From Planctomycetota bacterium (GTDB taxonomy: Bacteria; Planctomycetota; PUPC01; JACPCR01): a DNA stretch of 23,147 nt. A model generated the notes under the pieces. It worked only from the letters and a program-made list of their open reading frames with translations, made no database searches and was not told the origin of the DNA. Location of the stretch: NCBI GenBank assembly GCA_030740295.1, contig JASLXP010000198.1, positions 1-23,147 on the forward strand, in the 5' to 3' direction. Within the stretch, counting starts at the first letter, position 1. Each line of letters begins with the position of its first letter. Made by a program: the position numbers and the translations under genes. Shown piece by piece: positions 3,672-21,103 of the stretch.

Positions 3672-3711
3672 GCCAAGACGAAGGTGCTTTACGGTTTCGT
3701 GACCGGGCGGG

Positions 3712-3800
3712 TCCGCATTCGCAGGATGGCCGCCCTCGGCCGCCTCTTGCCCAGCAGCTCAAGACGGGCGAGGACGGCCATCCTTCGTCCCCAATGCGGA
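3712..3800. repeat. 89-bp palindromic element (long imperfect hairpin)
   Basis: Nested inverted arms. The outer pair is TCCGCATT (3712-3719) with AATGCGGA (3793-3800). The inner pair is AGGATGGCCGCCCTCG (3723-3738) with CGAGGACGGCCATCCT (3769-3784), 15 of 16 paired. Inside, CTCTTG and CAAGAC continue the stem partially. The whole folds into one long hairpin with small bulges, more than a terminator needs and with no T-tract. It fits a dispersed palindromic (REP or MITE-like) unit lying between the kinase and oxidoreductase genes. Confidence 0.6.
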
Positions 3801-3906
3801 ATCCCTCAGGCTACTTTCCCTCGCGCTGGCGAGCTCTGTTGAATCACCGGATCGGCGGTATAGATTGGCGCGCAAATCAACCCACCAGCAAGTAGAGAGA
3901 ATCAAC

Positions 3907-4920: not shown

Positions 4921-5045
4921 GGACGCAATCCAGAAGTCCTTTCCATAGTGCTGTCCTGCGGATTGCCGCATGTGAGGAGGTAAGGGGCAGGATGCCAGCG
5001 ACCGCAGCTACACTCTCTCACAGCACGAGCCGCGTTACTTTATCG

Positions 5046-5075
5046 TTGAGGAAAACCTGCTTTAGGAACTACAAT
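5046..5075 (+). promoter_or_regulatory. Candidate sigma-70-type promoter for the M16 peptidase gene
   Basis: TTGAGG (5046-5051) and TACAAT (5070-5075) are separated by 18 bp and resemble the -35 and -10 consensus at 4/6 and 5/6 positions. The start codon is 37 bp beyond the -10 box, giving a short leader. This is a pattern match only. Confidence 0.3.
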
Positions 5076-5111
5076 CCATGCTGAAATCGCCCACCCGAAC
5101 TGGATGTGCCT

Positions 5112-7709
5112 ATGACCCTTTTGCGTGTTGGTATCCTTTCGCTGATTTTGTCTTCAGCAGTTCATGCGGGCCTGATCGAACAGGCGGAAAGGCTCGTCCT
5201 CAAGAATGGATTGGAGGTCATCCTCATCCATCATCCTGCGAACCCGGTGGTCGGCATCACCACCCTTGTCCGTGCCGGCGTACGAAATGAGACCCAGGCA
5301 AGCAGCGGCGCTTCGCACTTTCTCGAGCACCTGCTCTTCAACGGAACAAAATCCCGCACACAGAAACAGCTTTACGACGAAACGGATTTCTACGGCATCT
5401 ATAACAATGCCCAGACACGGGCCGGTTTCACCCTCTTCATGATGTTGGCCGGCAAGGAGCACCTGGCCAAGGGGCTCAATATCCAGGCCGACATGCTGTT
5501 TCACTCAACGCTGCCAAAAGAAAAATTCGACAAGGAACGGAACATCGTGCTCGAAGAGATGGCCCGTTACGCGCATCGCGGCGATCACGGCGCAGACGCA
5601 TTCCATCGAGAGCTTCTTTATGCGGGCACGCCTTACCGGCAGCCGGTGCTCGGAACGGTCGAGAGCCTCAAGCAGATCAGCCGGGACGCGGTCTGGAAGT
5701 ACTACAGAGCGCAATATCAGCCGGGCAACATGACCCTCATCGTCATGGGCGACTATGAGCGGCCAGCCCTGATGAAAATGATCGAAAAGGATTACGGCTC
5801 AGTGCCCGCAGGCAAAAGGCCAGCCCCGGCGAAGGTGGGCAGGCTCAACATCTCCGGACGGCAGTTCATCTCAAAGAAAAACGAAAAGCTGAAGAAGAAT
5901 TTTCTTACCGTTTCGTTTCCAGGCCCTAAACCAGGCCATGCGGATTTCGCGGCAGTGACCGCGCTGACTTCTTCGCTCGGTGACCGGCTTCGTAAGAAGT
6001 ATTCAAGCGCCGGGGCTCAGCATCTTTCTCTTGGCGTGGAATACAATCGCGATTTCTCGGTGATTCGGTTGAGCGCGCAGTTGGATGCAAAATCCGATGC
6101 CGCGGCCGTTGCGCAGGATATTCTTGCCGAAGTTCGAAATGAGAGCTCATACCATGTTTCAAATGACGAATTGAAGGGCATGCTCCGAGGGCTGGCTTCG
6201 AGTGAGATTTTTCTGAGCGAAAAGGTGCATTACTACACTTTTCAGAAAGCCGGAGCGCTCATTGCCGGTGGCCTTGGGTTTGTCAAGGGCTATGTACCCG
6301 CGCTTGAGTCGGTGACGCCATTCCAGCTCGCAGATATAGGGCGACGCTACTTTTCGAATGCCAACTTCATTGGCTCGCTGACCGGCCCCAATGTTAAGAA
6401 TGCGAAGGTCACTGAATTCAAGAAAGCGAGCAAACCAACGCAGGCCGCGGCCGTCGCGGAGGAGGTGCGCGTGATTCGCGAGGTCTTGCCTGGCGGGCTG
6501 ACGGTACTCATTCGGCACAACCCTGGATCAAGCGTCTGTGGGATGCACCTGCTCGCCAGGAACCGATGTTACGTCGAGCCCAAAGGCAGAGACGGCATTG
6601 CCGACTTGATGCACCAACTCCTGCCGAAGGGCACTCATCACCGTAGCGCGGCAGCCATTCAAAATGAGCTCGACGACATCAGCGGCAACTTGAAGGTGAC
6701 CGACAGCCGGTTCATCCCTTACGATGATTACTACTTTTCCAGGGAGTATTCATACATCCGCCTGGAGACCCTGGATCGCCATATGGAACGCGGAGTCTGG
6801 TTGCTGGCCGACATGATCCGCTTTCCAGGTTTTCCTGAAAACCAGGTAAAGCAGGTCCGAGAAAGGACTGCATCGAGGCTCGGAGGCAAAAAACAAGGTG
6901 CGCGCAAGGCTGCTCGGCAGGCATTTCACAAGCAGTTGTTCGGCAAGCATCCCTTGACGCGATCTGTTGAGGGTACGGCGGATTCAGTAAAGCGGATTAC
7001 TCGAGCTGATCTGATCAAGTTTCATCGAAAGTATTTCGCGGCAGGCAATCTCATTCTGACCGTCGCATCCGGCATCAAGCCAGAAACAGTGATGGCCGCA
7101 GTAAAGCAATCCTTCGCCGGTCACACGGGAGCCGCGGCCATGAAGAAGACGCCGCGTTTTGCCAAAGCCAGCAGGCCCGGCGCGCACAAGCTCCCTTCGA
7201 CCGGCGCGGCCCAGGCCCAGATCTATTTTGGTCACCGGGTAGACGTGCCCGATGAGGACACCCCCGCTGCCGCAATGATGTCTGCCATCCTTTCTGACCG
7301 GCTTGTCTTCCAGCTCAGAGAGCGGGAAGGCCTGGCGTATTCGCTTGGCTGCAGCTTTGCTTTCACGGGGGCCGGCACCTACTTCGCGGCGGGGATCGGC
7401 ACCCGCCCCAAGAACATCGAGAAAGCTATTGCCGGTATCGAGCGCGAGATCGCAACGTTCCTGGATTCCGAAATCACTCAAAAGGAACTTGACCGGGTGC
7501 GCAATTCTCTCGTACACAGGCGTCGTATGCGCCGCCTTACCAGCGTCAATCAAGCTTACTTCATGGGCCTCTCAGAATTTCGAGGGCTGGGAACAGTCAC
7601 CGAAGCAAAGTTGAACGAGAGGCTCTCGAAGTTGACGCCCGACGACTTGCGGGCAGCGGCGCGAAAATACCTGAAACCAGCTAGGGCCGTGGTGGTCGTT
7701 GCTGATTAG
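5112..7709 (+). CDS. Secreted M16 family zinc metallopeptidase (two M16 halves)
   Basis: 865 residues from the ATG at 5112; a GTG two codons upstream is an alternative. A Sec signal peptide is evident (MTLLRVGILSLILSSAVHA, cleavage after A19). The N-terminal half carries the inverted zinc motif H69-F-L-E72-H73 followed by the downstream glutamate near E149 (NIVLEEMARY), so it should be catalytic. The second half (from about 455) lacks HxxEH: the matching place reads DLMHQLLPKG. It does keep the substrate-positioning segment LREREGLAYS near residues 733-742. This pairing of one active and one inactive half is standard for pitrilysin/PqqL-like M16 enzymes, which degrade short peptides inside a closed chamber. 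Location is periplasmic or extracellular. It is followed directly by a strong hairpin, so it is probably a single-gene unit. Confidence 0.93.
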   Translation: MTLLRVGILSLILSSAVHAGLIEQAERLVLKNGLEVILIHHPANPVVGITTLVRAGVRNETQASSGASHFLEHLLFNGTKSRTQKQLYDETDFYGIYNNAQTRAGFTLFMMLAGKEHLAKGLNIQADMLFHSTLPKEKFDKERNIVLEEMARYAHRGDHGADAFHRELLYAGTPYRQPVLGTVESLKQISRDAVWKYYRAQYQPGNMTLIVMGDYERPALMKMIEKDYGSVPAGKRPAPAKVGRLNISGRQFISKKNEKLKKNFLTVSFPGPKPGHADFAAVTALTSSLGDRLRKKYSSAGAQHLSLGVEYNRDFSVIRLSAQLDAKSDAAAVAQDILAEVRNESSYHVSNDELKGMLRGLASSEIFLSEKVHYYTFQKAGALIAGGLGFVKGYVPALESVTPFQLADIGRRYFSNANFIGSLTGPNVKNAKVTEFKKASKPTQAAAVAEEVRVIREVLPGGLTVLIRHNPGSSVCGMHLLARNRCYVEPKGRDGIADLMHQLLPKGTHHRSAAAIQNELDDISGNLKVTDSRFIPYDDYYFSREYSYIRLETLDRHMERGVWLLADMIRFPGFPENQVKQVRERTASRLGGKKQGARKAARQAFHKQLFGKHPLTRSVEGTADSVKRITRADLIKFHRKYFAAGNLILTVASGIKPETVMAAVKQSFAGHTGAAAMKKTPRFAKASRPGAHKLPSTGAAQAQIYFGHRVDVPDEDTPAAAMMSAILSDRLVFQLREREGLAYSLGCSFAFTGAGTYFAAGIGTRPKNIEKAIAGIEREIATFLDSEITQKELDRVRNSLVHRRRMRRLTSVNQAYFMGLSEFRGLGTVTEAKLNERLSKLTPDDLRAAARKYLKPARAVVVVAD

Positions 7710-7713
7710 TTGA

Positions 7714-7769
7714 GTGGTCTTGACGCTCCGCGGCGCGTTCAAAATGCTGCCGCGGGGCGTCAGCACCAC
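7714..7769. terminator. Strong 21-bp stem hairpin downstream of the M16 gene
   Basis: Arms at 7714-7734 and 7749-7769 pair at 18 of 21 positions (core CCGCGGC/GCCGCGG and GACGC/GCGTC) around a 14-base loop. It starts 4 bp after the M16 stop. No T-tract follows, so it is not a textbook intrinsic terminator; it may stabilise the mRNA 3' end or be a palindromic repeat. It ends 14 bp before the next start codon. Confidence 0.5.
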
Positions 7770-7783
7770 GTAATTAAATCTCA

Positions 7784-8689
7784 GTGAATTTCCAGACCGT
7801 TCAACAACTCCAATCGGCACTCCAGGACCCCGAGCTGCTCGGCACTATTCCGCCGGTGCTCGCCGTCGGCCTGGGCGTGATTCCGTTGCAGGTATCCGAG
7901 GAATACGCGCTCATCGGGCACGTCCCGTATGTCTGCTCTGATGCTTTCAAGTTTCTCGAGCGGTATTACGGCCGTGAAATCGTCACTGTGAGACTTCACG
8001 ACGGGGCTGCCCGCGAGGCCATCTGGAGAGCTTACGCCAGCGACAATGCTATCAATCATGACACCTTTCCCGACCCGGATTTCCTGCTGAAGCCGGAATA
8101 CGAATCCAAGCTCCTCAACGAAAAGGAAGATGAAATTGGCCCCCTCGGATGCGACCTCGCCGGGGACGAAGTTGTATTCCTCGAGACCACGTACTTCAGC
8201 GACCTGGTGAACATCGATCACAAAGAGGAACAGGAAGAACAGGTCATCGATGATGCGGTCATTCCCTTCAGGTTTGTCGATAATGTGCCCGCGGTTTTTG
8301 ATGGCGTGGTTCCTGATGACGCTTTCCTGGTCGAGCGCCGCAACTACTGCTACATCGGCTCGCAAGACAACCACGGCATCAGCCGTACAGACGTCTGTTC
8401 GTTGCCGCACGTGATCCATCCGTCCGAGATTCAGCTCACCCAGATAAGCGCGGACGGCAGCCTTACTTTCTACATCTACGATCACCTGGAGAGGGTTCAG
8501 GCCGGCCAGTCCGCGCACTTCGAGTTCCCTTACCACTTCATCAGCTTCGGTTTCCGCTACAGCCGGGTGCTTGCGCTAAGCGTGCACTCGATTGTCAAGT
8601 GTCGCCGAGACGAGATCTGTTACACCGATAAGGAACACAAATGGGAACTGGATGACGTGAAGCGATGGTTTAATCCGGCCAGAAGGTAG
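7784..8689 (+). CDS. Uncharacterised protein, possible GspE/MshE-N-like N-terminal domain
   Basis: 301 residues from GTG 7784, the first possible start after an in-frame stop at 7775; there is no internal methionine and no obvious Shine-Dalgarno sequence. It has no signal peptide and no membrane segment. Residues about 25-90 (LGVIPLQVSEEYALIGHVP to EAIWRAYA) resemble the N-terminal domain of type II secretion and pilus ATPases (GSPII_E_N/MshEN), which binds partners or cyclic di-GMP, but no ATPase domain follows. The middle has a very acidic stretch (DHKEEQEEQ, about 146-154). The C-terminal half has no family I recognise; it contains several cysteines and ends in the basic WFNPARR. Its composition is ordinary, and the minus-strand frame over it looks like an antisense shadow. 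The coding call is firm; function is unknown. Confidence 0.75.
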   Translation: MNFQTVQQLQSALQDPELLGTIPPVLAVGLGVIPLQVSEEYALIGHVPYVCSDAFKFLERYYGREIVTVRLHDGAAREAIWRAYASDNAINHDTFPDPDFLLKPEYESKLLNEKEDEIGPLGCDLAGDEVVFLETTYFSDLVNIDHKEEQEEQVIDDAVIPFRFVDNVPAVFDGVVPDDAFLVERRNYCYIGSQDNHGISRTDVCSLPHVIHPSEIQLTQISADGSLTFYIYDHLERVQAGQSAHFEFPYHFISFGFRYSRVLALSVHSIVKCRRDEICYTDKEHKWELDDVKRWFNPARR

Positions 8690-8748
8690 GTCCGTTTTCT
8701 TCAAGTCTGTCTGTGCCGTTGGCAGACCCATCATGTTTCGTTGGGCTG

Positions 8749-8765
8749 GCAGGCTGGCAGCCTGC
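8749..8765. repeat. Short palindromic repeat between convergent genes
   Basis: GCAGGCTGGCAGCCTGC is a near-perfect palindrome (8-bp arms around one unpaired base), and its left side is partly duplicated as GGCTGGCAGGCTGGCAG. It lies between the stop codons of two convergent genes, a usual place for dispersed palindromic repeats or a shared terminator. It has no T-tract. Confidence 0.45.
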
Positions 8766-8777
8766 GGCTACGTCCCG

Positions 8778-10415
8778 TCACTCTCTGGATCTCACCGCGG
8801 TCGCGGGATTCACCTGGGCCGCGTGGAAGGCGGCCCAGCCGGTCGCGATCCAGCAGACCAGCAGCGAGCCGCCGAGGGTCAACAACAGCAGAGACGCCGG
8901 TGCCCGAAAAAACTTTGGCATGGCATCGCCTGCCATCCCTATCTCCTGCTTCTGATTCCAGACCTTCATCAAGTGCTCGCCGATGGCGTCGCCGGCGGGG
9001 AATGCGATCAGCAAACCCAAAACAGCGGCGATGATCCAGACCAGTGCGGCTTCCGCAATGAAAATGGAGAACACAAATCCGCGGCTGGCACCATAGGCCC
9101 TGAGGATGCCGATTTGGGCCTGTTTGCGGCGAATTGTCTGGGCAAAGCTCAGCCCTATGTTGACCGCGGCCATGAAGGCCACCGCGCCGATCACCCAGGC
9201 AAACAACCGCCGCCCGAAAGCGGAGACCTGCTGCAGGAAGACCACCTCCTGGGCTATCCGATCATCCACCCCGAGCCCGCGAGCCTTGAGCGCATCCACC
9301 ACGCCGGGGACGAGTGAGAGCTCCTTCACGTAAGCCGAAGCACGGGTGAATCCGATATCAACGGACGACCATTGTGCCGAATCAGACCGCAGAGCATCAT
9401 CGAACCCGGCCGAGAGATTCTTGAACCAACCGGAATCGCCGAGGTACAGCGAAATGGTCGGAAAGAAGGTTGATGTCCAGTATTCCTCGTCCCAGCGCGT
9501 CTTGCCTGAAAGAGTCACCTTGATCCATTTATCACTGCCGGCCCTTTCAGTCAGCTCTACCTTGACCTCCTGATCGGCAAAATAATTCGCTGCCTTCTCC
9601 AGGATCTGTTTTCCCTGCCCAGCCGAAACAGGTCCCATGTACGCGTGGCGATGCATCGGAGGCCATTGCCATTTCCGGTCGCGAATCATCCTGTAGAAAG
9701 TCTCGCTGATAATGAAATCCCCCGCGGGCAGCCATTTCGCCACGCCGACAATCTCGAGGGGCGCGGCCCTCTGCTGATAGACCACCTTGAGTGCCGCAGG
9801 GGGCTTTTCATATCCCAACTGTTTGAGTAGCGATTCGGTGACGATCAGGTGCGGTAGGACGGGGCGCTCGAAAAAACGGTCTGATGCCTTCTGAGTGAAT
9901 GACAGCTTTTCAAGGACCGGGTCATTGGGCTGTACCGTTCGTCCGGATGAGAAATCGGTATCACGGCTGCCATCCCTCTTAAAAAACCAGAGCGCGTAAT
10001 CGTTCCAGCCGGCCACGCGGTGCACGGCACGTCTTGAATCATCACTGTTGGTGTCCGGCGCGATTTTGCCATCCTGCCCAACTGCGAAAGTTCGAATCTC
10101 TTTCTCATCTTCCTCTGAGATTGTTTTAACGGATGCTCCGAGCCCGCCGTGGATTTCCACGACGAGGGCGAGCGGATTCTCTTCGATGTATTCGCGCAGG
10201 AGTGTGGTCGTGCCGATGACCAGACCGCCGATAACCAGGGCGGTCACAATGAGCGTTGCGAGGGTGAGGACATTCAATCCGGTCGTGAGCCATCGCTTCG
10301 AAGTATCCAACAGGCTGGCAGCTTTCTCGGCCGGTGTCTCGCCAGCGATGCGAAACGGGAGAAGGTCGTTGACCGCGTAATTCAGAATGTATGCCAACCG
10401 TGACATTGGATTCAT
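8778..10415 (-). CDS. FtsX/MacB-type ABC transporter permease
   Basis: 545 residues. Topology is that of the type VII (mechanotransmission) permeases: one N-terminal membrane helix (about 46-70, LNVLTLATLIVTALVIGGLV), a periplasmic domain of roughly 330 residues, then three C-terminal helices (about 400-425, 435-470 and 505-530). The FtsX segment is recognisable in RRKQAQIGILRAYGAS, the cytoplasmic coupling region that contacts the ATPase, and the end is the usual VNPATAVRSRE. The start ATG overlaps the ATPase stop by 4 bp (ATGA), so the two are translationally coupled. Relatives either extract lipoproteins (LolCDE), drive tripartite efflux (MacB) or transmit force to periplasmic enzymes (FtsEX). 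The large periplasmic domain and upstream vWA genes favour a periplasmic partner. It is the last gene of the operon. Confidence 0.9.
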   Translation of the reverse strand: MNPMSRLAYILNYAVNDLLPFRIAGETPAEKAASLLDTSKRWLTTGLNVLTLATLIVTALVIGGLVIGTTTLLREYIEENPLALVVEIHGGLGASVKTISEEDEKEIRTFAVGQDGKIAPDTNSDDSRRAVHRVAGWNDYALWFFKRDGSRDTDFSSGRTVQPNDPVLEKLSFTQKASDRFFERPVLPHLIVTESLLKQLGYEKPPAALKVVYQQRAAPLEIVGVAKWLPAGDFIISETFYRMIRDRKWQWPPMHRHAYMGPVSAGQGKQILEKAANYFADQEVKVELTERAGSDKWIKVTLSGKTRWDEEYWTSTFFPTISLYLGDSGWFKNLSAGFDDALRSDSAQWSSVDIGFTRASAYVKELSLVPGVVDALKARGLGVDDRIAQEVVFLQQVSAFGRRLFAWVIGAVAFMAAVNIGLSFAQTIRRKQAQIGILRAYGASRGFVFSIFIAEAALVWIIAAVLGLLIAFPAGDAIGEHLMKVWNQKQEIGMAGDAMPKFFRAPASLLLLTLGGSLLVCWIATGWAAFHAAQVNPATAVRSRE

Positions 10416-11233
10416 GGGGCGGTCGATTCAAGCTGGTGAACTTTTGAATGGACTCGGAGGACGTCGGTCAATCGATCCGGCGTCTCCACGAGTTCCTCGT
10501 CTTCGAGCTTCGTTTCTGCATGTTTGGGGTGGACGCCTTTGAAGATAATCCCACCGTCCTTCAGCATGACGAAACGGTCTGTGAAGTCGATCACCTGGTG
10601 GATGTTGTGCGAAACGATGATCAACGTGTGCCCGGACTCATGCTGCCAGCGTGCGAGGCGCTCCATTACCGCCAGTCCCGTATCCCAATCCAGATTCCCG
10701 GTCGGCTCATCTGCGAAGACAACCTGCGGTTCGTGCGCAATGGCCCGCATCACTGCGACTCGCTGCTTTTCGCCCCCTGAGAGTTCGCTCGGCAGCGATT
10801 TGGCCTTTGATTCGATGCCCACTTCCGCGAGAAACGTCTTTGCACGGCGATCGCATTCGGACAGCGGTACGCCCTTGATAGCAATTCCCATGGCGACGTT
10901 GCGGGCTGCGCTGAAGTGTTCCAGCAGGTGGTTGTCCTGAAAGACAAAACCATACTCGTTGCCGCGCAACCGATTCTGAGCCCGCTCATCATGCCGAATG
11001 CTCTTGTATGACTGTTCTCGATAGGTGATGTCGCCGCCATTGTCATCCGTCCGATCGAGGAGACTGAGGACATTGAGAAGGGTGGATTTGCCTGACCCTG
11101 AATAGCCGAGGATGGCGGTGGTCTGTCCGCTCGCGATTTCAAGCGAATCAATGTTCAGGGCCGGCCGGACGGAATCATCATTCGTGCGGCCATAAGTCTT
11201 TTTAACATTGTTGAGAGTGAAGCAGGCTTGCAT
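10412..11233 (-). CDS. ABC transporter ATP-binding protein (LolD/MacB/FtsE type)
   Basis: 273 residues from the ATG at 11233, preceded by GGGGAA as a fair ribosome binding site. An in-frame longer version to 11311 would overlap the upstream vWA gene and adds a cysteine-rich stretch unlike the family, so I reject it. All ATPase motifs are present: Walker A GYSGSGKST (43-51), Q-loop Q99, signature LSGGEKQ (151-157), Walker B VVFADEP with E176, and H-loop H209 in IIVSHN. The sequence is closest to the LolD/MacB/FtsE group that pairs with FtsX-like permeases, and the next gene encodes exactly such a permease. The C-terminal 35 residues after the core are a charged extension. It sits 34 bp after the vWA gene stop, in the same operon. 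Confidence 0.92.
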   Translation of the reverse strand: MQACFTLNNVKKTYGRTNDDSVRPALNIDSLEIASGQTTAILGYSGSGKSTLLNVLSLLDRTDDNGGDITYREQSYKSIRHDERAQNRLRGNEYGFVFQDNHLLEHFSAARNVAMGIAIKGVPLSECDRRAKTFLAEVGIESKAKSLPSELSGGEKQRVAVMRAIAHEPQVVFADEPTGNLDWDTGLAVMERLARWQHESGHTLIIVSHNIHQVIDFTDRFVMLKDGGIIFKGVHPKHAETKLEDEELVETPDRLTDVLRVHSKVHQLESTAP

Positions 11234-11267
11234 AGTTCCCCAATGAGCGTCTGCGGAGGGGAGCAAT

Positions 11268-13712
11268 CTACGGCAGCAGCGACATTGGAATCCATGCGAA
11301 TTCCTGATCATTCGCCTGCCACCAATATTTCTTGAAACCGAGTGACTTCACTTTGACGATCTCACGGCCGCCTTCGTTCTTCTTCTCCAGTGCGAGATCC
11401 TGCTCCATGAGAACACCTCTCATCAGTCTGAGATCGTTCTTGAGACCGTTGTAGAGATCGGTGAGCTCTTTGGGGGGCAGATTGCTGATCTCATCAATGT
11501 TCTTGTGGAGCAGTTTCTTGCGGACGACGAGGCCCAACTGATTCTGGATGAGCTCGGCAATCGTTTTATTGATATCCACGTTCTCTTCACCCAGGTTGGT
11601 CATCAGGACGGCCGTCCACAGTTTGCGAACGTTTTCCTTACTCGGCGGCTTGCGGGTGAAGCCGGCCAGCACGCCGACGAGAATTTCGTAATCGGCGCGG
11701 CTGACGAGGATGACCTCCTTGATCTGATCGATGCCTGATTTCGGGTCGTTTTCAGCAACCCAACCTTCGCCAAATACCTGGATGCTGTCGCTGACAAATG
11801 CGTCCGGATCGACGCCGGCCTTGCGCATCATCGCGGTAAACTTTTCGGTGAGGCGCAGACCGTATTGCTTCTTCAGCTCGGCCAGCCCGCCGCCTCGTCC
11901 GCCTTCAGCCGTACGGCGAACCATTTCTGCCAGGACTTTCGAATCCTCCGTTACCCGGCTTCCCGCCTCCACGATGTATTTGGCGACCTGCTTGGGATCC
12001 ATATTGCGGTAGTAGGAAGTGTTGCGCTCCATTCCGAGCTGCAGGTTGATGATCTGCACCTGATCCTGGAAGAGGCGAACGTCCGGGTCACGATCGATAC
12101 GTTTATCGTCAACCACGTGAATGGAATAGAAATCCATCTGGTTGTCCTGCAGAAATTTTGCGATGTCCACGACGTTGTACCCGCGTGTATCTTCGGGATG
12201 GTTGCCCTTGTCTCCCACAAGCACGACTGCTCGGAACGAAAGGTCGGTCATCTCTTCCTTGGCTTCGTGAACCGCTCGATAAATGCCGTGGAAGACCGCT
12301 TCCGGCTCGTCGCCACCAGCGCCGTCGGGCGGGCGTGGCTCGTTGGTGAGGAACTTGACGATCTTGTCCACATCCTGGGTAAGGGGCAGCCGTTTCACCA
12401 GGTAGGAATCGATCGGGTTCGGCTGGCCGTCCTGATCCACATAATCCCGATAGAAAAGGACGGAGAACTGAACCACCGGCCGGTTGGGATCATCGGGGTC
12501 GTATGACTTGGAGAGTTGATTGACGATGGCTTTGACTGCCTTTGCCGCGGCCGGGAAATAACGGGTCATACTGCCGGTGGAATCGACGACGAAGAGAAGG
12601 TCAATGTTGCGAAGCTTTCTCTGCAGAACTGAAAGTTTCTCTTTGGCCTCAGAAAGTTCGTTTGCCGAGAGGCCCTTCTTCTCATCTTCGAGATAAATCT
12701 GGTCGCCGATGAAACCGACCTGCAAAAGGCGGCCGGCACGGGAACCTTTTGCCTCCAGCGAGGCCAGCAGCGGGAAGCGCTGCCAGTTGTGCCGCCAGAA
12801 GGTGACACTGATGTCCTCTTCCGCGACCGGCTTGAGCGGCTCCTCCTTGCCCGGCGGGGTCTTGATGCCGCGGGTAAACCACTCCAACTCTTTCTGATTC
12901 GCAAAAATCTTGACCCCCTTGTCCGCCTCTTTTTTTCCTTCGTTTCTGACTTTGATGTTGTCTTTGTTGAACTCGATCGCCTGCCTTGTATCCCACCGGA
13001 AAATCCGGGCGTCCGCGACCCAGCCGCGGATGGCTTCCTGCGGTTGGCGATGCGAAACGATGATCGGGCGGTCGCCGAGAAGGAAGTAATTCTTGCCGCC
13101 TCGAGTTTCCTCGCCGTAGATGTAGTAAAAATCATAAAGGCCGATTTCGCTGAGCGTATCGTAGTCTTTGCCATCAGGAGCCTTGCCCGGGCCGTTCAAA
13201 ACGGAAGTCCCCGCGATCTTTGATTTGTCTTTAACAGATTTCAGCCGCTTCCAGTCGTTGACGATCAGCGCCTTTCGATAGATCCCATGCTTGGTCTTTG
13301 TACCCTCGCGGGTCATGACGCAATCCCTGGTATTTATCCACCCGATGAGATCTTTCAGTTGCAGGTTCTCATCCGCAGTAGCGGCGAGGACAAACTCACT
13401 TTTGCCTTCTTTGACCGGCCCCTTCGCCAGATAGTAAGGCTCGAGGAACCTGGCGTGCCTCAGGATTTTGGATTTCGCCTTGGGCGCGTCCAGAATCTCG
13501 GTTTTCTCCGCGCTGACATAAACAGGGACGGGTCCTGAAGGGCCCATGATAAGTTGTGACGGCTTTTCTCCCTTGCCAATGTCAAGCGCGCTCACGGCAG
13601 AACACGACATTGAAAGAATCGCCAGAAAGGCTAAGAGCTGCATGGCGCGGGAATCTTGTCGCGGAGCGCCAAGGCCACTTCGGGGGGATTGGTTGGGACT
13701 TTGAGTTTTCAT
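11268..13712 (-). CDS. Secreted SH3b-like plus vWA domain protein
   Basis: 814 residues from the ATG at 13712, chosen over the longer frame to 13745 because AGGAG lies 7 bp upstream (13720-13724). A second in-frame ATG at 13643 would give a tidier signal peptide. A long basic n-region leads into a hydrophobic segment (LLAFLAILSMSCSAVSA, cleavage near residue 42). Residues about 55-240 look like bacterial SH3 repeats (VPVYVSAEKTEILDAP, LIGWINTRDCV, IRGWVADARIF). A vWA domain (about 367-560) has the MIDAS D377-S-T-G-S and GGDEPEA around D468, of the kind seen in PpkA/TerY-type vWA proteins. A helical C-terminal part ends in EFAWIPMSLLP. The vWA domain should bind a divalent metal and a protein ligand. 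Its position before the ABC genes suggests it is their extracytoplasmic partner. Confidence 0.85.
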   Translation of the reverse strand: MKTQSPNQSPRSGLGAPRQDSRAMQLLAFLAILSMSCSAVSALDIGKGEKPSQLIMGPSGPVPVYVSAEKTEILDAPKAKSKILRHARFLEPYYLAKGPVKEGKSEFVLAATADENLQLKDLIGWINTRDCVMTREGTKTKHGIYRKALIVNDWKRLKSVKDKSKIAGTSVLNGPGKAPDGKDYDTLSEIGLYDFYYIYGEETRGGKNYFLLGDRPIIVSHRQPQEAIRGWVADARIFRWDTRQAIEFNKDNIKVRNEGKKEADKGVKIFANQKELEWFTRGIKTPPGKEEPLKPVAEEDISVTFWRHNWQRFPLLASLEAKGSRAGRLLQVGFIGDQIYLEDEKKGLSANELSEAKEKLSVLQRKLRNIDLLFVVDSTGSMTRYFPAAAKAVKAIVNQLSKSYDPDDPNRPVVQFSVLFYRDYVDQDGQPNPIDSYLVKRLPLTQDVDKIVKFLTNEPRPPDGAGGDEPEAVFHGIYRAVHEAKEEMTDLSFRAVVLVGDKGNHPEDTRGYNVVDIAKFLQDNQMDFYSIHVVDDKRIDRDPDVRLFQDQVQIINLQLGMERNTSYYRNMDPKQVAKYIVEAGSRVTEDSKVLAEMVRRTAEGGRGGGLAELKKQYGLRLTEKFTAMMRKAGVDPDAFVSDSIQVFGEGWVAENDPKSGIDQIKEVILVSRADYEILVGVLAGFTRKPPSKENVRKLWTAVLMTNLGEENVDINKTIAELIQNQLGLVVRKKLLHKNIDEISNLPPKELTDLYNGLKNDLRLMRGVLMEQDLALEKKNEGGREIVKVKSLGFKKYWWQANDQEFAWIPMSLLP

Positions 13713-13719
13713 GGATCGA

Positions 13720-13724
13720 CTCCT
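13720..13724 (-). promoter_or_regulatory. Ribosome binding site that sets the vWA gene start
   Basis: AGGAG on the minus strand, 7 bp before the ATG at 13712. It decides between three in-frame ATG candidates (13745, 13712, 13643). Confidence 0.6.
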
Positions 13725-13799
13725 GAAGAATTGGCCAAGGACCAAGTGGGGCAGGAAAGAGGCAAAGGCGGGCAGGCCAGGGAAGCCTGGAGGCTGAGC

Positions 13800-15833
13800 T
13801 CAATTCTGAGGCGGCGGGGTGGGGTAGTGAAATTGCAGTTTGGCAACCTCCTCGAATAGCTTGTCGCTGATCGTCAGCACCTTGTAGAAGCCCTGCGTCT
13901 TGTCGCAAAGCTCCTTGTACGAACGTGTAGGATCATCAGTAAAACCTACTTCGACGAGACGAAGTCTCAGATTGTTTTGTCGGAAAGCGTCCATAACGCC
14001 ATCACCACCGGCGTCGTAAAGATTGAGCTTCTCATCCATGGCAAGATTCTTGGGCGCGATCACCAACAGGTCCGCGCCGGCCTCTCCGACCTGCCGCGAG
14101 TTCTTGATGAAGTCCGCGAGTTTCTTCAAGTCGCGCCAGCTCAGGCTGCCGGCATGGGCATAAAGACCGCTTAACCTGGTCAACGCCTGCTTGACGTCGC
14201 CCTCGTTGATTTTTGCAGTCATCGGCAGAATCTGGCGGATTCGGCCGTCACCGATGGAGAGCACACTGGTACTTTTCCAAAGCTCCGGGCTCTTGTGGAA
14301 ATCGTTCATAATCTTTTTCATGGTCTGCCGGACGCGGGTGAAATTCTTGGGAGATGCGGTGAACGCCTTCGACAAAACGACCACTGCATACATGGAAGGC
14401 TTGACCGCACGGCGCTGCGGCATGAGGACGATCTCGACCGCGTTGTCCCGGCTTGGATTCAAGGGGGCCTTCCGTGTTTTGTAGCCGCCGTGATGGGTCT
14501 CGATCAGGATGAGTGATGCATTCGAATACGCGTAGCCGACCTCTGCCCAGCCCCGCTTATCGGTGGTGACGGAGGCGAGCTGCCGTCCCTCTTCCGTGAC
14601 CAGGATAGTCGCGCCCGAAACCATGCGCCCGACGTTGTCCTTGACGGTGACGGCCACTTTTGATTTGAGCTGTTTGCGTTCGAGCTTGAAGGTGTAGCTG
14701 CCCGCCTTGGTGACGGGCTGGCTTGCGGTAATCCGGCCTGCAGAAGAAGCCTGCAATTTAAGCTGTACCTTCTCTTTGGCTTTGTAACGGACGGTACCGA
14801 CTCCCTGCTGCAGAAGGACACGCTCATAAATCTTGCTGGTCTGGGCATCCAGAACGCTTACATCCGCCTGTTCGAGCCGCTCGCCTGCGCTGCCCTGGAC
14901 GATCAGGCTGAGCGTTCGGTCGATGGTGCGGATGATCGGCTCGAGGCTTATATTGGTTGTGGCTATGCGAGCGTTCAGGGGCCTGCGAACGGCCTTGTAG
15001 CCATCCAATGCGGCCTCAATCGTCAAAGCTGCGGCATCGGTGTAAGCATAGTTGAGCGCGGCTGTCCCTTTCGCGTCGCAGGTTGCCCGGGCAAGAATCT
15101 TCCCTGCTTCAGCAACAATGACCTGGGCGCCGGTCAGTGGTTTGCCATCGGCGTCCTTGACCACCGCACTGCTGCTCGCGCGTACCTCTCTTCGCTTGAG
15201 CTTAAAGATGTAACTGTTACCCGCGCCTAGCTTCAGCGCGGTGGATTTACGTCCCGGCGCCGTGGCGATCAGTTCCAGGTCCAGATCCTCTTCAGCCTCG
15301 AATTCCACACTGCCCAGCCCCTCGAGCAGGAGCTTGCGCTCAATGATCTTCTTGGTGCGAGCGTCCAGGATGGCTACCTCTGCATCTCGGAGACGGCGGC
15401 CCTCCACGCCTTCGACCACGATGCTCACAGATCGCTTCTGTTTGGCGGGCACTACGACCACCTTCTGCACTGGAATAGTTGAATACTGAATGGGCGCAAG
15501 CTGCAACGGCGGCGAAAGCCGGATCTCATACTGGTTGGACCAGTAAACAGCCTGTCGCTTTTCAACCATGCCCGGATAGCGAACGACAAGCTCGACATCC
15601 GGCTTGGCCCGGACCACGATGCCCTTCGTCCCTTTTGCGCCGGTTTTGTAGACCTGGCCTTCGAGCGGCGTCTTGGTTGCCAGGTCGACAACCATGATGT
15701 TCGCCCCAGCTATGGGCAGGTTCTGATTGTTCTTTACGATGACCTTGACATACCGGGTCTTCGGTCGTGCCCCCGAGGCAGGAAGGCAGACGGCGAGTAA
15801 GAGGACGCACGTGATTTTCAGATGAGTTTTCAT
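13800..15833 (-). CDS. Secreted protein with duplicated CnaB-like domains and a vWA-like C-terminus
   Basis: 677 residues; ATG at 15833 with GGAG 6 bp upstream. The signal peptide is MKTHLKITCVLLLAVCLPASG. The first region (about 27-108) is a carboxypeptidase-regulatory/CnaB-like Ig domain (VIVKNNQNLPIAGANIMVVD). Then a unit of about 170 residues occurs twice: 134-299 and 306-472, each made of two beta-sandwich domains (compare VAILDARTKKIIERKLLL with VSVLDAQTSKIYERVLLQ, and GSYTFKLERK with NSYIFKLKRR). The last part (about 480-665) reads like a vWA fold (YAVVVLSKAF, then ADLLVIAPKN) but has no DxSxS metal site. It is probably a stalk-like envelope protein for ligand binding or presentation. 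It follows the lipoprotein gene by only 14 bp and precedes the larger vWA gene by 87 bp, in one operon. Confidence 0.82.
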   Translation of the reverse strand: MKTHLKITCVLLLAVCLPASGARPKTRYVKVIVKNNQNLPIAGANIMVVDLATKTPLEGQVYKTGAKGTKGIVVRAKPDVELVVRYPGMVEKRQAVYWSNQYEIRLSPPLQLAPIQYSTIPVQKVVVVPAKQKRSVSIVVEGVEGRRLRDAEVAILDARTKKIIERKLLLEGLGSVEFEAEEDLDLELIATAPGRKSTALKLGAGNSYIFKLKRREVRASSSAVVKDADGKPLTGAQVIVAEAGKILARATCDAKGTAALNYAYTDAAALTIEAALDGYKAVRRPLNARIATTNISLEPIIRTIDRTLSLIVQGSAGERLEQADVSVLDAQTSKIYERVLLQQGVGTVRYKAKEKVQLKLQASSAGRITASQPVTKAGSYTFKLERKQLKSKVAVTVKDNVGRMVSGATILVTEEGRQLASVTTDKRGWAEVGYAYSNASLILIETHHGGYKTRKAPLNPSRDNAVEIVLMPQRRAVKPSMYAVVVLSKAFTASPKNFTRVRQTMKKIMNDFHKSPELWKSTSVLSIGDGRIRQILPMTAKINEGDVKQALTRLSGLYAHAGSLSWRDLKKLADFIKNSRQVGEAGADLLVIAPKNLAMDEKLNLYDAGGDGVMDAFRQNNLRLRLVEVGFTDDPTRSYKELCDKTQGFYKVLTISDKLFEEVAKLQFHYPTPPPQN

Positions 15834-15847
15834 TCAGTACTCCAAGG

Positions 15848-16660
15848 TTAGTCCTGGGGAGCCTTGTCCTTCTTTCGGCCGAAGGGCCAGAAACTTCTCT
15901 TCTTTTTTTCGGGCTTCTTTACAAATACATACTGGCCGCTGTTCTGCTCCGCGATCTTGGTCAATACTTCCGCACCTTCGTCGCTCATGAAAGCGATGGT
16001 GTTAATGACCACCGGCTTATCATTTTCATTGAGCGCCTGAATCATTGCCGGGAAGGAATCATGAAAGAGACCATCAGAGAGCAGGAAGATGGCATCGGGC
16101 GCGAGATCCAGGGCTCGGATGATGGCTCTGGACGGGTTCGTCTTGCCGCCGGCCTTGACCCCTTTTATCCACTTTGTGCAAACGTCAAGATTTTCAGACG
16201 TGGCCGGCAGAAGACCGCTGGCCGGCATTTCATACGCGCCCGTATCGTAGAAGATGATGAAGAAGGCCGTCTTCTCAGAGTATTGAGAAAGGGAATTCAA
16301 GAGCTCGTTTTTTGCAAACTCGAGCCGCTTCCCGCTCATCGACCCGCTTTTGTCAATGACATACACAAACCTCGAACCAAAGGCGCGGGCATTCATAAAC
16401 TCGACAGTCTGGCCCGGCACCGTGTCGGACGCTTTCTTCATACGGCCCTTGATATCGGCAATTCGGACTTCGATATACTTGCGTGCTTCCGCCTTCAGCC
16501 CCTCCATGGCCGCCATCTTTTCGAGACGTGTAAGCTCCCTCTGCAGGTAAAGCTTGTAGTCCTTGTTCTGTTCCTTTTTTCCTGCAGCGGATAGGAAACT
16601 GCTGCAGCCAAATAGCGCAAGAAGCATCCATGCGCCGAATGAATTGGAGAGGTAATTCAT
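15848..16660 (-). CDS. vWA domain lipoprotein
   Basis: 270 residues from the ATG at 16660. The longer frame to 16714 starts with TTG and disrupts the signal, so I prefer the shorter form, though no clear Shine-Dalgarno sequence precedes it. The signal ends in a lipobox L-F-G-C19, followed by serine, which predicts sorting to the outer membrane in LolCDE-bearing bacteria. A short coiled-coil-like charged segment (about 28-75) precedes a complete vWA domain: D103-K-S-G-S107, T174 in GGKTNP, and D196 in LLSDG, so all MIDAS residues are present. The C-terminus is strongly basic (EKKKRSFWPFGRKKDK). It is the first gene of the operon that ends with the ABC permease, and a 14-bp gap separates it from the CnaB-type gene. 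Confidence 0.87.
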   Translation of the reverse strand: MNYLSNSFGAWMLLALFGCSSFLSAAGKKEQNKDYKLYLQRELTRLEKMAAMEGLKAEARKYIEVRIADIKGRMKKASDTVPGQTVEFMNARAFGSRFVYVIDKSGSMSGKRLEFAKNELLNSLSQYSEKTAFFIIFYDTGAYEMPASGLLPATSENLDVCTKWIKGVKAGGKTNPSRAIIRALDLAPDAIFLLSDGLFHDSFPAMIQALNENDKPVVINTIAFMSDEGAEVLTKIAEQNSGQYVFVKKPEKKKRSFWPFGRKKDKAPQD

Positions 16661-17119: not shown

Positions 17120-20100
17120 ATGAAAGCACTGAAAATGTCTCTACTGCTCAGCCTGCTGTGCCTCCCAACCTGGGCACAGGAAAGAACCATCCGATTCGGG
17201 GAGCAGGATACTTGCAGCGTCATCGGGGTCTGCAGCGTCACGAATGCCAAAGACTGGAAGAGCGGTGAGATCAGGTTTGACCTGAGCAAGCTCAGAAAAG
17301 GTACGAAGGTCGTTCGTGCTCATCTGCGGATGTGGATGAGCTTCCAGCCCCAGCATGCAGGCGATGGCCGCATCAAGCCATACTCGAACCGGTATTTGCC
17401 GAAGCGATGGCTCGAAGAAGACTTCGATGGATTCAAGCTCTGGCAGGTAGGCAGCCGCGAGGAACCACTGGATACGGTTTATCCCTTCACGTACACACTT
17501 GCCGCCATTCATGAATGGGATGTCACGGTTGCGGTGCAGTCGTGGATCGCCGACCCGGAAACCAATCAGGGAATGAAGGCCAACGCTCCATTCATCCCCC
17601 ACAACTTCGCTCTCGCCTGGATGCGGCCCTACCTGGAAATCACTATCGAGGGTGATGACGCTGGCCGACCGAAGCAACCTGCAAAACTCAATGCGAAATA
17701 TCGGTCAGGCCAGGTCTTCCTGACTTGGGAGCAGATTTCCTACGACGGGGCATTCTGCGATTCGAACTACCGCATTTACATGCATGACCAGCCCATCACG
17801 GGTGCCAATCTGAGAGCGGCGAAGTTGCTGGGAGAAGTTCATAAGAACTCACAGCTCAACTACCGGCGGACCGTTCAAACGCGCGGGGCTTACATCAACC
17901 AGTATGCCGCGTTCGGCTATTTCAAAGGTTTCTTCGGCGAAACTTATGCGGAACAGCAGCGGATCAATTTCGTTATCGACGATACCTGGCCAGAAAAAAT
18001 CGATGGCGGGAAATGGCTCAAAGATGACACACTTCTCGGCAAGAAAAACGGCATGCACACCGGCCCGGAGCTCAGCAATGACACGGGCCTGTTCGTCCAC
18101 ACCATTGAGAACCCGGGGCCCCGCTACTTTGCTGTCACTTCGGTAGTCAAAGGCTTCGAAAACAAGCGCGACTTCGGCCCCGGCAACTCCAGTAAGGAGA
18201 TCGACACGAAAGTGGATGCGCCCAAGCCCGTGCTGCAGACCGTCTACTACAACAATGTTCGCGGCGCGGCCTATGTCAGCCACATGCTCGAATACGTTTT
18301 CTGGGGAGGCCCTTCCGAGGATATCCACAGCGAGCCGTCGACACCCATCTACTTTCGGCTCTACCCAAGCAAGGTTGTCTACAACAACAAGCCGTTTCGA
18401 CGGAGCAGACCCGAAAATGCCTGGACCACTCTGGGCGGCAGCCTGCGCGGCGCTACGGTCGGGGTCGATCTCACATACGTACCGCCCACGCGGCTCGCGC
18501 CGATGCCGCCAAACTCCGCTCCCTGGGCTTCCTGGAACCGATTCGTCGATTACTATCGCCCGACTCATGCGACGCCTCAACCCAGGGAAGTTCCGCTGCG
18601 CCTGGCGTGGCACATCGCTCGGCCGACCCTGAATCGTTTCGGCTACCACGACCGCCTGAATACGGGCGAAAACCCACGCAAGGCCACCGTCAGACCCTAT
18701 GCGGAGAATCGCCTGATGCGATGCCTGGAGTATTACTTCCAGACTTTTCCACAGGCTAACCGCAAGCGAGTCGCGGCCACTGGCCAGGGCAACACGCTCA
18801 TGCTTGGGCTTCACCATCCCAAAGTCATCGCCAGTGTCGGCGTGGGTCAGGAAGAGCTCTGGGGAGCGAAATATAAGGCAGAAAGGGAGTGGCGAATGGT
18901 CGGTCTGCGTCAGTGGAATCTGAAGACGCCGGACGGCGACAGCGTCTGGGATTGGAACGATCCGGTCTGGTATTCCCGCAAGTTCCCCACCCGGACGTGG
19001 CCGATGCTCGACATGCTGATGAGCCCTAACTACGCTCGCGCCGACCAGCGTCACTGGAACGACTGCGGCTACCCCGGCGTCTATCTCGAATTGTCAAAAG
19101 ACAAGCGAGGCGGCCGATGGTGGTGGTGCGACATCGGCGACGCGCCTTCGCCACGCAATCCTGCAGTGCCCCTCGACGAAGCTTACCTCGCTTTCACAAA
19201 CGTCAACTTCGGTGAAGTGCCGGTGCAGGAGTGGCGCCGAGTCCCACGCGGCAGCCTGAATGGTTACCTGATCTGGCAAGGCAAGGTGGCCCCACAATAC
19301 GTTGCGCTGGCCCCCTATGAAAGGCTGCACAAGAGCGTTCAGGCGAAACGGCCAGAGGGCAGACCTCATCCTTACGGAATTCGTCGGCCTGATGGCGGTG
19401 TGAATATCAAGACCTGGACGGCAAAACGCCTGGAGTTGTCGGACGATCCCGATCGCTTTGCAGCCGGCATCCGCATCGGTGACAACGGCCGACGGCTGAA
19501 CGGGCAGTCGGTACCGCCCACAGAGGCCCGCTACGGCAAGACAGACATCACTCTCTGGCGACTGCAGAAATTTAAGGTTGAGAAGGGCAAGAAGTATCTC
19601 TGGACAAATCGCAAACCCACGGACAATGCCTTGATTCAGTCGGGAGTCATCGAACCCGACGACCGTAATCTGCTCACCGTGCCCGGTTTCTGTGTTGATC
19701 GCAGTATGCTCGGCACTGTTCTGGAAGTTGTGCCGCTGACAGGTGAGATTCCACAGCCGAATCCAGGTACCGAGATCGAGGGAGAGAAACTCGCGGCTTT
19801 TGTCGCCCGCTGTGAAAAGGGCATCGAGCTGCCTAGGGTCACGGCCACGCAGCCAGTGGTAATCCCGATTAACGCGGGTGCGTCAGGCGGAAACTTCGGC
19901 AAGCACTGGGCGAAATTCGTTGAAGTGGAATCGGCCGGCCGGCACGTCATCGAGGCCAAAGCCAAAGGCACTCACAGCGTCGCCTGGCCTCTGCTGAGTC
20001 TGGCGGTGCACAGCATCTGGGGCCCGAAGCTCGGCGCGCTGCGGCTCGATTCTCCGGAGTTACGCACTTACCGGTGGGTGGCCGAACTGCCCGCAGGAAG

Positions 20101-21103
20101 TGTCCGCCTTCGTCTGTCTCAGCCGGCGGAGTATTACATGGTGCACACGGTCTCCGGACTCAAGGAGAAGAAGCTTCACGTAGAGAGCTTGACCGTCCGC
20201 AAAATTGAAGATGACGAGCAGGCGCTTCAGATTGATGCCGTGCCCGGTTACGCAGTCGGGCCGGTGAACATGCCGGTGCAGTTCCAGGCCCGCACGCTGA
20301 TGGGGGATGGGAATCGAGTGGAAGTCGAAAAAGTGATCTGGTCATCGAGCGGAGGAACGATCACCCCGGCGGGCCTTTTCACCGCCGACAAGCCAGGCAA
20401 GTATTCCATCACAGCAAAGGCAGGTGGCCTGAGCGATACCGCCACCATCATTACGAGCGATAAGATGATGGATGATTTCAACGAAGGTAGCGGCTACCTC
20501 GATCCAGCCTGGTCGCCAGTCAATCTTGGCAAGGGTTCGGGACGATGGCAGATTACTCCCAGAGGACACCACTTTCTCACCTCCATGGGCCAGCAGGATC
20601 GCCAGGCCGAGACGGCCATGATCTGGTCGCCTGGGTCAGAGTGGGCCGATTACCACGCTCAGGTCGACATGATCGCCCGCACCACGCGCCCCATCGGGAA
20701 GTGGGGCATCCTCATTCGCGCGACAGACGAAGACAGCCACTACCGATTCGAGATCGAACGAATCTTCAAAAAATCGAAAGCACGAATAGTTAAACGCCAG
20801 GCCGGCGTGGAAACAGAGCTCGCCACCTCCGAAATCGGCGAAGCGTCCAAGCTGGACTGGCAGACCAACCGCATGTGTACCGCGTGGAACAAACTGCCAA
20901 AAGACCAGGGCGACAAGAAGACGGCTGGCTTTCGTATGGATCGCATGCGCATCACCGCAAAAGGAAGCGAAATCACCTGTTACCTGAACGGGAAGGAAGT
21001 GATGAAAGCAAAGGACGACAATCCGCTGGAAAAAGGCGCGCCAGGACTTTACTCGCGGGGACTGAACTACTTTGATAACTTCGAGGCGTGTAAGAGCGAA
21101 TGA
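17120..21103 (+). CDS. Giant secreted multidomain protein with a degenerate alpha/beta-hydrolase core
   Basis: 1327 residues; the ATG at 17120 follows AAAGG at good spacing. The signal peptide is MKALKMSLLLSLLCLPTWA, cleaved after residue 19. Residues about 22-178 match the DNRLRE/CBM96-like beta-sandwich (GEIRFDLSKL, AHLRMWM, IHEWDVTVAVQSWI). About 183-370 look fibronectin-III-like. The segment about 440-740 resembles an esterase-type alpha/beta hydrolase, but where GxSxG is expected (after the RVAATG strand, 550-559) the sequence is G555-Q-G-N-T, so the nucleophile serine appears to be glycine. About 1035-1112 is a Big-type Ig domain (SSSGGTITPAGLFTA). About 1115-1325 is a laminin-G/DUF1080-like jelly roll (GILIRATDEDSHYRFEI, CYLNGKEV). 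The many carbohydrate-binding-type modules suggest polysaccharide binding at or outside the cell. A creatininase-family gene follows after 54 bp. Domain calls are from pattern recognition; the function is unknown. Confidence 0.85.
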   Translation: MKALKMSLLLSLLCLPTWAQERTIRFGEQDTCSVIGVCSVTNAKDWKSGEIRFDLSKLRKGTKVVRAHLRMWMSFQPQHAGDGRIKPYSNRYLPKRWLEEDFDGFKLWQVGSREEPLDTVYPFTYTLAAIHEWDVTVAVQSWIADPETNQGMKANAPFIPHNFALAWMRPYLEITIEGDDAGRPKQPAKLNAKYRSGQVFLTWEQISYDGAFCDSNYRIYMHDQPITGANLRAAKLLGEVHKNSQLNYRRTVQTRGAYINQYAAFGYFKGFFGETYAEQQRINFVIDDTWPEKIDGGKWLKDDTLLGKKNGMHTGPELSNDTGLFVHTIENPGPRYFAVTSVVKGFENKRDFGPGNSSKEIDTKVDAPKPVLQTVYYNNVRGAAYVSHMLEYVFWGGPSEDIHSEPSTPIYFRLYPSKVVYNNKPFRRSRPENAWTTLGGSLRGATVGVDLTYVPPTRLAPMPPNSAPWASWNRFVDYYRPTHATPQPREVPLRLAWHIARPTLNRFGYHDRLNTGENPRKATVRPYAENRLMRCLEYYFQTFPQANRKRVAATGQGNTLMLGLHHPKVIASVGVGQEELWGAKYKAEREWRMVGLRQWNLKTPDGDSVWDWNDPVWYSRKFPTRTWPMLDMLMSPNYARADQRHWNDCGYPGVYLELSKDKRGGRWWWCDIGDAPSPRNPAVPLDEAYLAFTNVNFGEVPVQEWRRVPRGSLNGYLIWQGKVAPQYVALAPYERLHKSVQAKRPEGRPHPYGIRRPDGGVNIKTWTAKRLELSDDPDRFAAGIRIGDNGRRLNGQSVPPTEARYGKTDITLWRLQKFKVEKGKKYLWTNRKPTDNALIQSGVIEPDDRNLLTVPGFCVDRSMLGTVLEVVPLTGEIPQPNPGTEIEGEKLAAFVARCEKGIELPRVTATQPVVIPINAGASGGNFGKHWAKFVEVESAGRHVIEAKAKGTHSVAWPLLSLAVHSIWGPKLGALRLDSPELRTYRWVAELPAGSVRLRLSQPAEYYMVHTVSGLKEKKLHVESLTVRKIEDDEQALQIDAVPGYAVGPVNMPVQFQARTLMGDGNRVEVEKVIWSSSGGTITPAGLFTADKPGKYSITAKAGGLSDTATIITSDKMMDDFNEGSGYLDPAWSPVNLGKGSGRWQITPRGHHFLTSMGQQDRQAETAMIWSPGSEWADYHAQVDMIARTTRPIGKWGILIRATDEDSHYRFEIERIFKKSKARIVKRQAGVETELATSEIGEASKLDWQTNRMCTAWNKLPKDQGDKKTAGFRMDRMRITAKGSEITCYLNGKEVMKAKDDNPLEKGAPGLYSRGLNYFDNFEACKSE

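Follow-up and report, generated by a model that had tools for sequence, protein, structure and literature searches.

A conserved core of a TssR/PpkA-type vWA protein and a type VII ABC transporter in a planctomycetal gene cluster

A 23,147-nucleotide stretch of a Planctomycetota bacterium genome (assembly GCA_030740295.1, contig JASLXP010000198.1; hereafter the window) carries on its minus strand five genes, A to E. They encode a likely lipoprotein with a von Willebrand factor A (vWA) domain, a secreted repeat protein, a second vWA protein, and the ATPase and permease of an ATP-binding cassette (ABC) transporter. The genes are real and lie where a sequence-only reading of this DNA had placed them. 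Here we show that C, D and E form a conserved core, and that C is co-inherited with its transporter. The features are as follows:

11268..13712, minus strand: C, TssR/PpkA-type vWA protein, presumably periplasmic, the core partner, 814 residues (VWA; TssR_VWA below cut-off)
12993..13535, minus strand: C, residues 60-240, beta-rich N-terminal modules with GW pairs, predicted from the secondary structure of the model
11817..12617, minus strand: C, residues 366-632, vWA domain
12567..12584, minus strand: C, residues 377-382, metal-site motif DSTGSM (D-x-T-x-S-M in 18 of 18 aligned rows)
10412..11233, minus strand: D, LolD/FtsE/MacB-type ABC ATPase, 273 residues (ABC_tran, E 4.3e-29)
8778..10415, minus strand: E, type VII ABC permease, 545 residues (FtsX, E 9.1e-13; YtrF/MacB/LolC fold)
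9216..10214, minus strand: E, residues 68-400, large domain between helices 1 and 2, predicted from topology and model
15848..16660, minus strand: A, vWA protein, likely lipoprotein, 270 residues (VWA_3, E 5.7e-9; one N-terminal hydrophobic stretch)
15923..16366, minus strand: A, residues 99-246, vWA domain (Pfam stretch) with a DKSGSM motif read from the sequence
13800..15833, minus strand: B, secreted protein with carboxypeptidase-regulatory-like repeats and a C-terminal domain, 677 residues (CarboxypepD_reg, Big_1)

The vWA protein and its transporter

The alignment of C holds 17 homologues (28-91%) and one TssR fragment, and the pairs G124 W125 and G230 W231 are invariant in it. In the window protein the Pfam family TssR_VWA scores 18.1 bits against a cut-off of 25.7 and the TssR N-terminal barrel family is unmatched; across the alignment TssR_VWA matches 11 of 18 rows (E 0.01 or less), and TssR_M matches four of six distant rows. 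Profile comparison with hhalign joins C to distant Planctomycetota rows over 653 columns (probability 100, E 4e-74), while a protein named TssR (P0030) is homologous over half of C (E 2.3e-21). The folds of C and E are presented as models. That of C has a predicted local distance difference test score (pLDDT) of 81.7; its fold search was filled by matches to the vWA domain, the other domains being barely probed. By sequence, the best match of C in the PDB (E 0.031) was taken as chance, and neither C nor E has a match in the plasmid collection.

D carries Walker A, LSGGE and FADE motifs, read from the sequence. Its best NCBIfam matches include LolD, MacB and FtsE, the LolD model giving 177.5 bits, below its cut-off of 307.75. 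Hydrophobic stretches in E (49-67, 397-422, 451-469 and 507-525) and its model predict one helix, a large periplasmic domain and three further helices, the architecture of the type VII (MacB/ABC3) superfamily, to whose LolD/FtsE/MacB-type ATPases D conforms. Fold matches of E include the MacB and BceA-B permeases, so that model and fold search agree with the earlier assignment of E to the mechanotransmission class. In MacB, the exemplar of this class, ATP turnover is coupled to movement of the periplasmic domain and no substrate is carried across the inner membrane (PMC5985334). E scores far below the cut-off of the lolCE equivalog model (37.2 bits against 362.45). Several relatives have two permease genes, as in LolC/LolE (L119, L178, L175 and L176, and probably L120 together with L177); the window has one.

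Conservation of C, D and E

A profile search with C of 392 Planctomycetota genomes gave matches in at least 12. In five of the 12 matching genomes they are shorter frames of 339-692 residues (L105-L109), mostly around the vWA domain. The full-length family is present in at least seven of the 392, at nine places, and a search with the distant rows returned the same seven. These counts are lower bounds, since two candidates were scored per genome. At all nine places (L117, L118, L100, L119, L120, L121, L122, L123 and L178) the gene adjoining C is an ATPase or a permease: the ATPase gene adjoins it at seven, and the permease lies in the same gene run at six. L100, L123 and L178 end at contig edges, and L123 and L178 may be halves of one locus. 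Gene order differs among lineages while gene content stays the same. In two cases a C homologue and an E homologue have a longest contig of identical size (32571 and 18822 bases), which suggests linkage. Acidobacteriota gave matches in two of 396 genomes, one of them full-length (L001, with the order E-B'-C-D on one strand) and the other covering only profile positions 347-494.

As controls we took 82 places with generic vWA genes. A D-like ATPase (E 1e-20) lies within 6 kb in 4/82 and an E-like permease (E 1e-3) in 0/82. Many of the control stretches cover little sequence (2.3-3.9 kb in six cases), and distant permeases escape the permease test, as did the one beside a C-like gene in the Thiomargarita/Parabeggiatoa set (L009). 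The vWA scan of related genomes covered the best 80 of 339 relatives.

Trees point the same way. The C-linked ATPases (nine rows) form one branch with support 97/99.6, or 99/95 once proteobacterial vWA-linked rows are added, apart from the ATPases of other FtsX loci and from E. coli LolD, FtsE, MacB and YbbA. The nine-row tree leaves aside the srf, Thiomargarita and L088 rows; the enlarged one adds srf and Tistrella, still without Thiomargarita, and the L181 ATPase is in neither. In an early, mostly poorly resolved ATPase tree with srf and Thiomargarita rows, the Thiomargarita branch is about 10 long and the srf ATPases fall with other ATPases (85/85). The C-linked permeases likewise form one branch of 15 rows (97/93), and one of 12 rows in a second tree (80/93), from which L176a, L176b and L177 were dropped and where two of the 12 rows do not adjoin C. 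In the tree of C the loci group as they do among the permeases, and both E and D fall outside the LolC/E and LolD branches. All trees are unrooted and their non-C-linked rows were chosen. Among 45 permease matches listed, seven come from C-bearing clusters or their split-off permeases; eight of the other 38 were opened, and each of the eight is accompanied by an ATPase of its own, with C absent from the 9-14 kb examined.

The proposal that three vWA proteins are dedicated partners of the transporter is supported for C and, as it stands, not for A and B. Among the eight C-bearing genomes, orthologues of A (85%) and B (82%) were found in one only, G139, a near relative of the window whose permease match reaches 1080 bits. 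The five-gene set is therefore seen in two close lineages only, and A and B appear as additions to a core that includes C alone of the three. The remaining matches of A in C-bearing genomes, all vWA proteins at no more than 35%, lie apart from the module. In A, Cys19 lies within LFGC, aligned to LFSC in L117. B has a hydrophobic N-terminus, CarboxypepD_reg in three stretches (E 3.7e-15) and a Big_1 match; its C-terminal end had been read as vWA-like, and profile comparisons found no vWA link. Nor did they relate B' of L001 to B, the two having in common the CarboxypepD_reg domain and their place in the gene run. Beta-sandwich repeat proteins are found near the module elsewhere, with Calx-beta in L121, PEGA in L009 and a weak PKD match, below cut-off, in L118; this may be a theme or chance.

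Among the papers listed by literature searches in one library, none shows the vWA-ABC composition in Planctomycetota, the nearest being PMC3608642. The MoxR-vWA system of PMC12067865 is not the same.

Relatives in srf and type VI secretion loci

Outside Planctomycetota, C matches a profile of vWA proteins from Enterobacter, Gluconobacter, Thiomargarita and Parabeggiatoa over 542 columns (hhalign probability 99.8, E 2e-29), and it is a full-length relative of the srf-cassette vWA proteins. Three plasmid loci (Enterobacter sp. 638, Gluconobacter albidus and Cereibacter azotoformans) share one order: srfB, srfC, one gene, vWA, ABC ATPase, permease and SUMF1. Pfam gives no match for the permease of Gluconobacter (L124), which was assigned by similarity to other permeases. 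This cassette resembles the window in its C-related vWA protein and in the class of its ATPase and permease. It differs in that its transporter lineage and that of the window sit on separate branches and that srfB, srfC and SUMF1 have no match among the 18 window frames, of 50 listed, that the domain scans covered.

On the Tistrella mobilis plasmid pTM1, a run of vWA, ATPase, FtsX permease and SUMF1 genes lies in a type VI secretion cluster, after tagF, a PP2C gene and a Ser/Thr kinase gene. The srf/Beggiatoa profile aligns with the vWA protein of this run over 579 columns (E 1.7e-53). That profile set has 3953 homologues; among the 120 listed, five are named PpkA, with 651-673 residues and no kinase family listed. 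TagR is itself a SUMF1-type protein, and the Tistrella stretch (L206, 7110-14848) has the look of a PpkA divided between separate genes, together with a TagRST-like set, in a bacterium other than Pseudomonas.

In Pseudomonas aeruginosa, TagQRST and PpkA of the H1 type VI system sense outer-membrane damage (PMC11881912), the vWA domain of PpkA being extracytoplasmic (PMC3224232). TagS and TagT together are an ABC transporter that modulates this response, its exact role being unclear (PMC6657622), and TagQRST has been called restricted to Pseudomonas (PMC6082577). The window resembles this system in pairing an ABC ATPase and an FtsX-like permease with a protein of the extracytoplasmic-vWA kind: its ATPase and permease genes adjoin a vWA gene of apparently the PpkA/srf type. 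The likeness runs through the split Tistrella layout, whose vWA protein is related to C; the P. aeruginosa proteins themselves were not compared. In the window, by contrast, C is a free-standing vWA protein; PpkA-type Ser/Thr kinase, PP2C, SUMF1/TagR and type VI secretion genes have no match in the scanned frames, and A and B have no sequence counterpart in TagQRST-PpkA.

The family of C also resembles TssR of the T6SSiii systems of Bacteroidota through the TssR_VWA and TssR_M matches of part of its rows. Unlike TssR, C stands beside an ABC transporter and not beside type VI secretion genes, and the scanned frames hold no match to other T6SSiii membrane and sheath genes. VipB is found in four of 11 related genomes and in neither G139 nor G001 (genome completeness is not given), so type VI secretion seems not to be needed.

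Several other loci carry related genes. In G133 (L120), a 946-residue protein joins a Ser/Thr kinase to an FGE-sulfatase domain, and a single gene separates this fusion from C; the cluster spans 2445-10203, and a type VI secretion marker lies elsewhere in that genome. The Thiomargarita and Parabeggiatoa loci L002 and L003 each have two tandem C-like vWA genes, flanked in L002 by an ABC ATPase on one side and a sigma-54 response regulator on the other, and L009 has a single C-like gene followed by an FtsX permease. In the plasmid collection, 114 Klebsiella records match the srf-like Thiomargarita vWA protein and 114, in a separate search, the srf FtsX permease. On Thiodictyon pTs485 (L205, 11977-15280), FtsX permease and SUMF1 genes lie near VgrG, with no vWA or ATPase gene annotated alongside. 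An Azospirillum stretch (L126) was set aside, being without annotation and with unclear frames.

Proposed mechanism and alternatives

We now propose that D and E, as an ABC transporter of the type VII (mechanotransmission) class, form a complex with C, their dedicated vWA protein in the periplasm, and that on balance this complex probably senses envelope contact or damage. Two copies of D and two of E would form the inner-membrane motor, and the E domain of about 330 residues would bind C and link the state of C to the turnover of ATP. A, the vWA lipoprotein, and B, a repeat stalk, may be outer parts peculiar to their lineage, perhaps standing in for TagQ or TssP. On contact or damage the module would pass a signal on, as TagRST/PpkA does for type VI secretion, here with no type VI genes nearby. 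What we infer is the contact of C with E, the periplasmic location of C, which way signals run and what A and B do. The statement that no named system has this composition does not stand, since the core resembles both the TagRST/PpkA sensor and the vWA-ABC-FtsX-SUMF1 cassette behind srfB-srfC. Overall, the sequence-only reading of the operon is borne out in part.

Several observations weigh against a sensor of this descent. Compared directly, C and the vWA protein of Tistrella match with moderate strength (probability 93, E 2.6e-7, 533 columns). The D-x-S-x-S motif is broken in two of six distant rows (G117 and G061), which means that metal binding is not universal in the family, and the methionine after it is absent in four of six. 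In G036 and G061, C and the permease pair are on different contigs, and five of the 15 C-linked permease rows (L175a, L175b, L176a, L176b and L177) come from C-bearing genomes without adjoining C. The scanned window frames have no match to a Ser/Thr kinase (Pkinase), SUMF1/FGE-sulfatase or type VI secretion gene. Finally, Planctomycetota and proteobacterial vWA-linked permeases are joined with support 90/91 in the 15-row tree and in 26% of bootstrap trees when FtsX and more rows are included; the ATPases of the two groups stand apart in the best tree, with a single clade not rejected (approximately unbiased test, p 0.118). One vWA-linked origin of both sets of transporters is thus neither shown nor rejected by these sequence trees.

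The main rival, which we hold to be rather unlikely, is an outward machine resembling FtsEX, where cytoplasmic ATP turnover moves C (and B) for wall remodelling or surface assembly and nothing is signalled inward. The permease class is the same and the scanned frames hold no PpkA-type kinase. Beta-sandwich repeat proteins also recur near the module (B, B' of L001, Calx-beta, PEGA and the weak sub-cut-off PKD), and TssP, the partner that TssR binds, has PKD-like domains (PMC10781749). Against such a machine, none of the five genes is a wall hydrolase or export gene by the Pfam scan, and the nearest kin whose role is known, judged by the order of genes, is a sensor. Window and LolCDE, MacB and FtsEX have in common the fold and topology of E and the ATPase type of D; the window differs from all three in its vWA partner and its separate C-linked branches.

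Lipoprotein release, suggested earlier, would make the module a LolCDE dedicated to particular lipoproteins such as A. The LolD model is indeed the best-scoring one for D, E is weakly similar to lolCE and A looks like a lipoprotein. This role is nevertheless improbable, as each of the eight C-bearing genomes has another, more LolC/E-like permease elsewhere (186-209 bits with the lolCE model, all below the curated cut-off, against 38.7 for E in G139), and E and D lie outside the Lol branches. A shade less probable still is sensing or export of antimicrobial peptides, as by BceAB or MacAB. The fold matches to those permeases would fit it, as would a GAF-containing hybrid histidine kinase with two receiver stretches (1653-3671, plus strand), a possible, unproven partner. 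That kinase lies about 5 kb away on the opposite strand, and no MacA-like or TolC-like match was found in the scanned frames; the L117 contig stops inside an M16 gene, short of the kinase position. That the vWA genes are chance neighbours, not working with the transporter, is the least probable account. That A and B were not found beyond the close relative and that gene order varies speak for it, and for A and B it may hold; for C it is already unlikely, given the adjoining ATPase or permease at every place, the common tree branches and the same content in different orders.

Elsewhere in the window, frames 7784-8689 (plus) and 7781-8536 (minus) overlap, neither with a Pfam match; a match to the minus frame is kept beside the operon in L117, and the plus frame looks more protein-like. 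Divergent from the operon, 17120-21103 (plus) encodes a 1327-residue protein whose C-terminal 3-keto-disaccharide hydrolase match is just below cut-off. A promoter scan of the window found none (3.1 expected) and 12 terminator-like sites were seen (9.7 expected). Antiphage defence was rejected: six PADLOC families match D (best mad3, E 2.3e-26), read as general ATPase similarity, with one weak match for E (1.5e-4) and none for A, B or C.

We tentatively extend the proposed sensor to a wider picture, where TagRST/PpkA is one branch of an older, widespread envelope machine made of a type VII ABC transporter and a TssR/PpkA-type vWA protein. In Planctomycetota and Acidobacteriota this machine would work without type VI secretion, serve other outputs and carry outer parts that vary by lineage, A and B among them. 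TssR and the vWA proteins of srf and type VI secretion loci would then be tied into one family with a transporter partner. With three core genes and no adjacent kinase gene seen, the module would offer a simple system for studying how the ABC transporter acts on the vWA protein. If this is true, a conserved vWA-ABC core without a type VI secretion marker would mean that the sensor predates the weapon, or stands apart from it.

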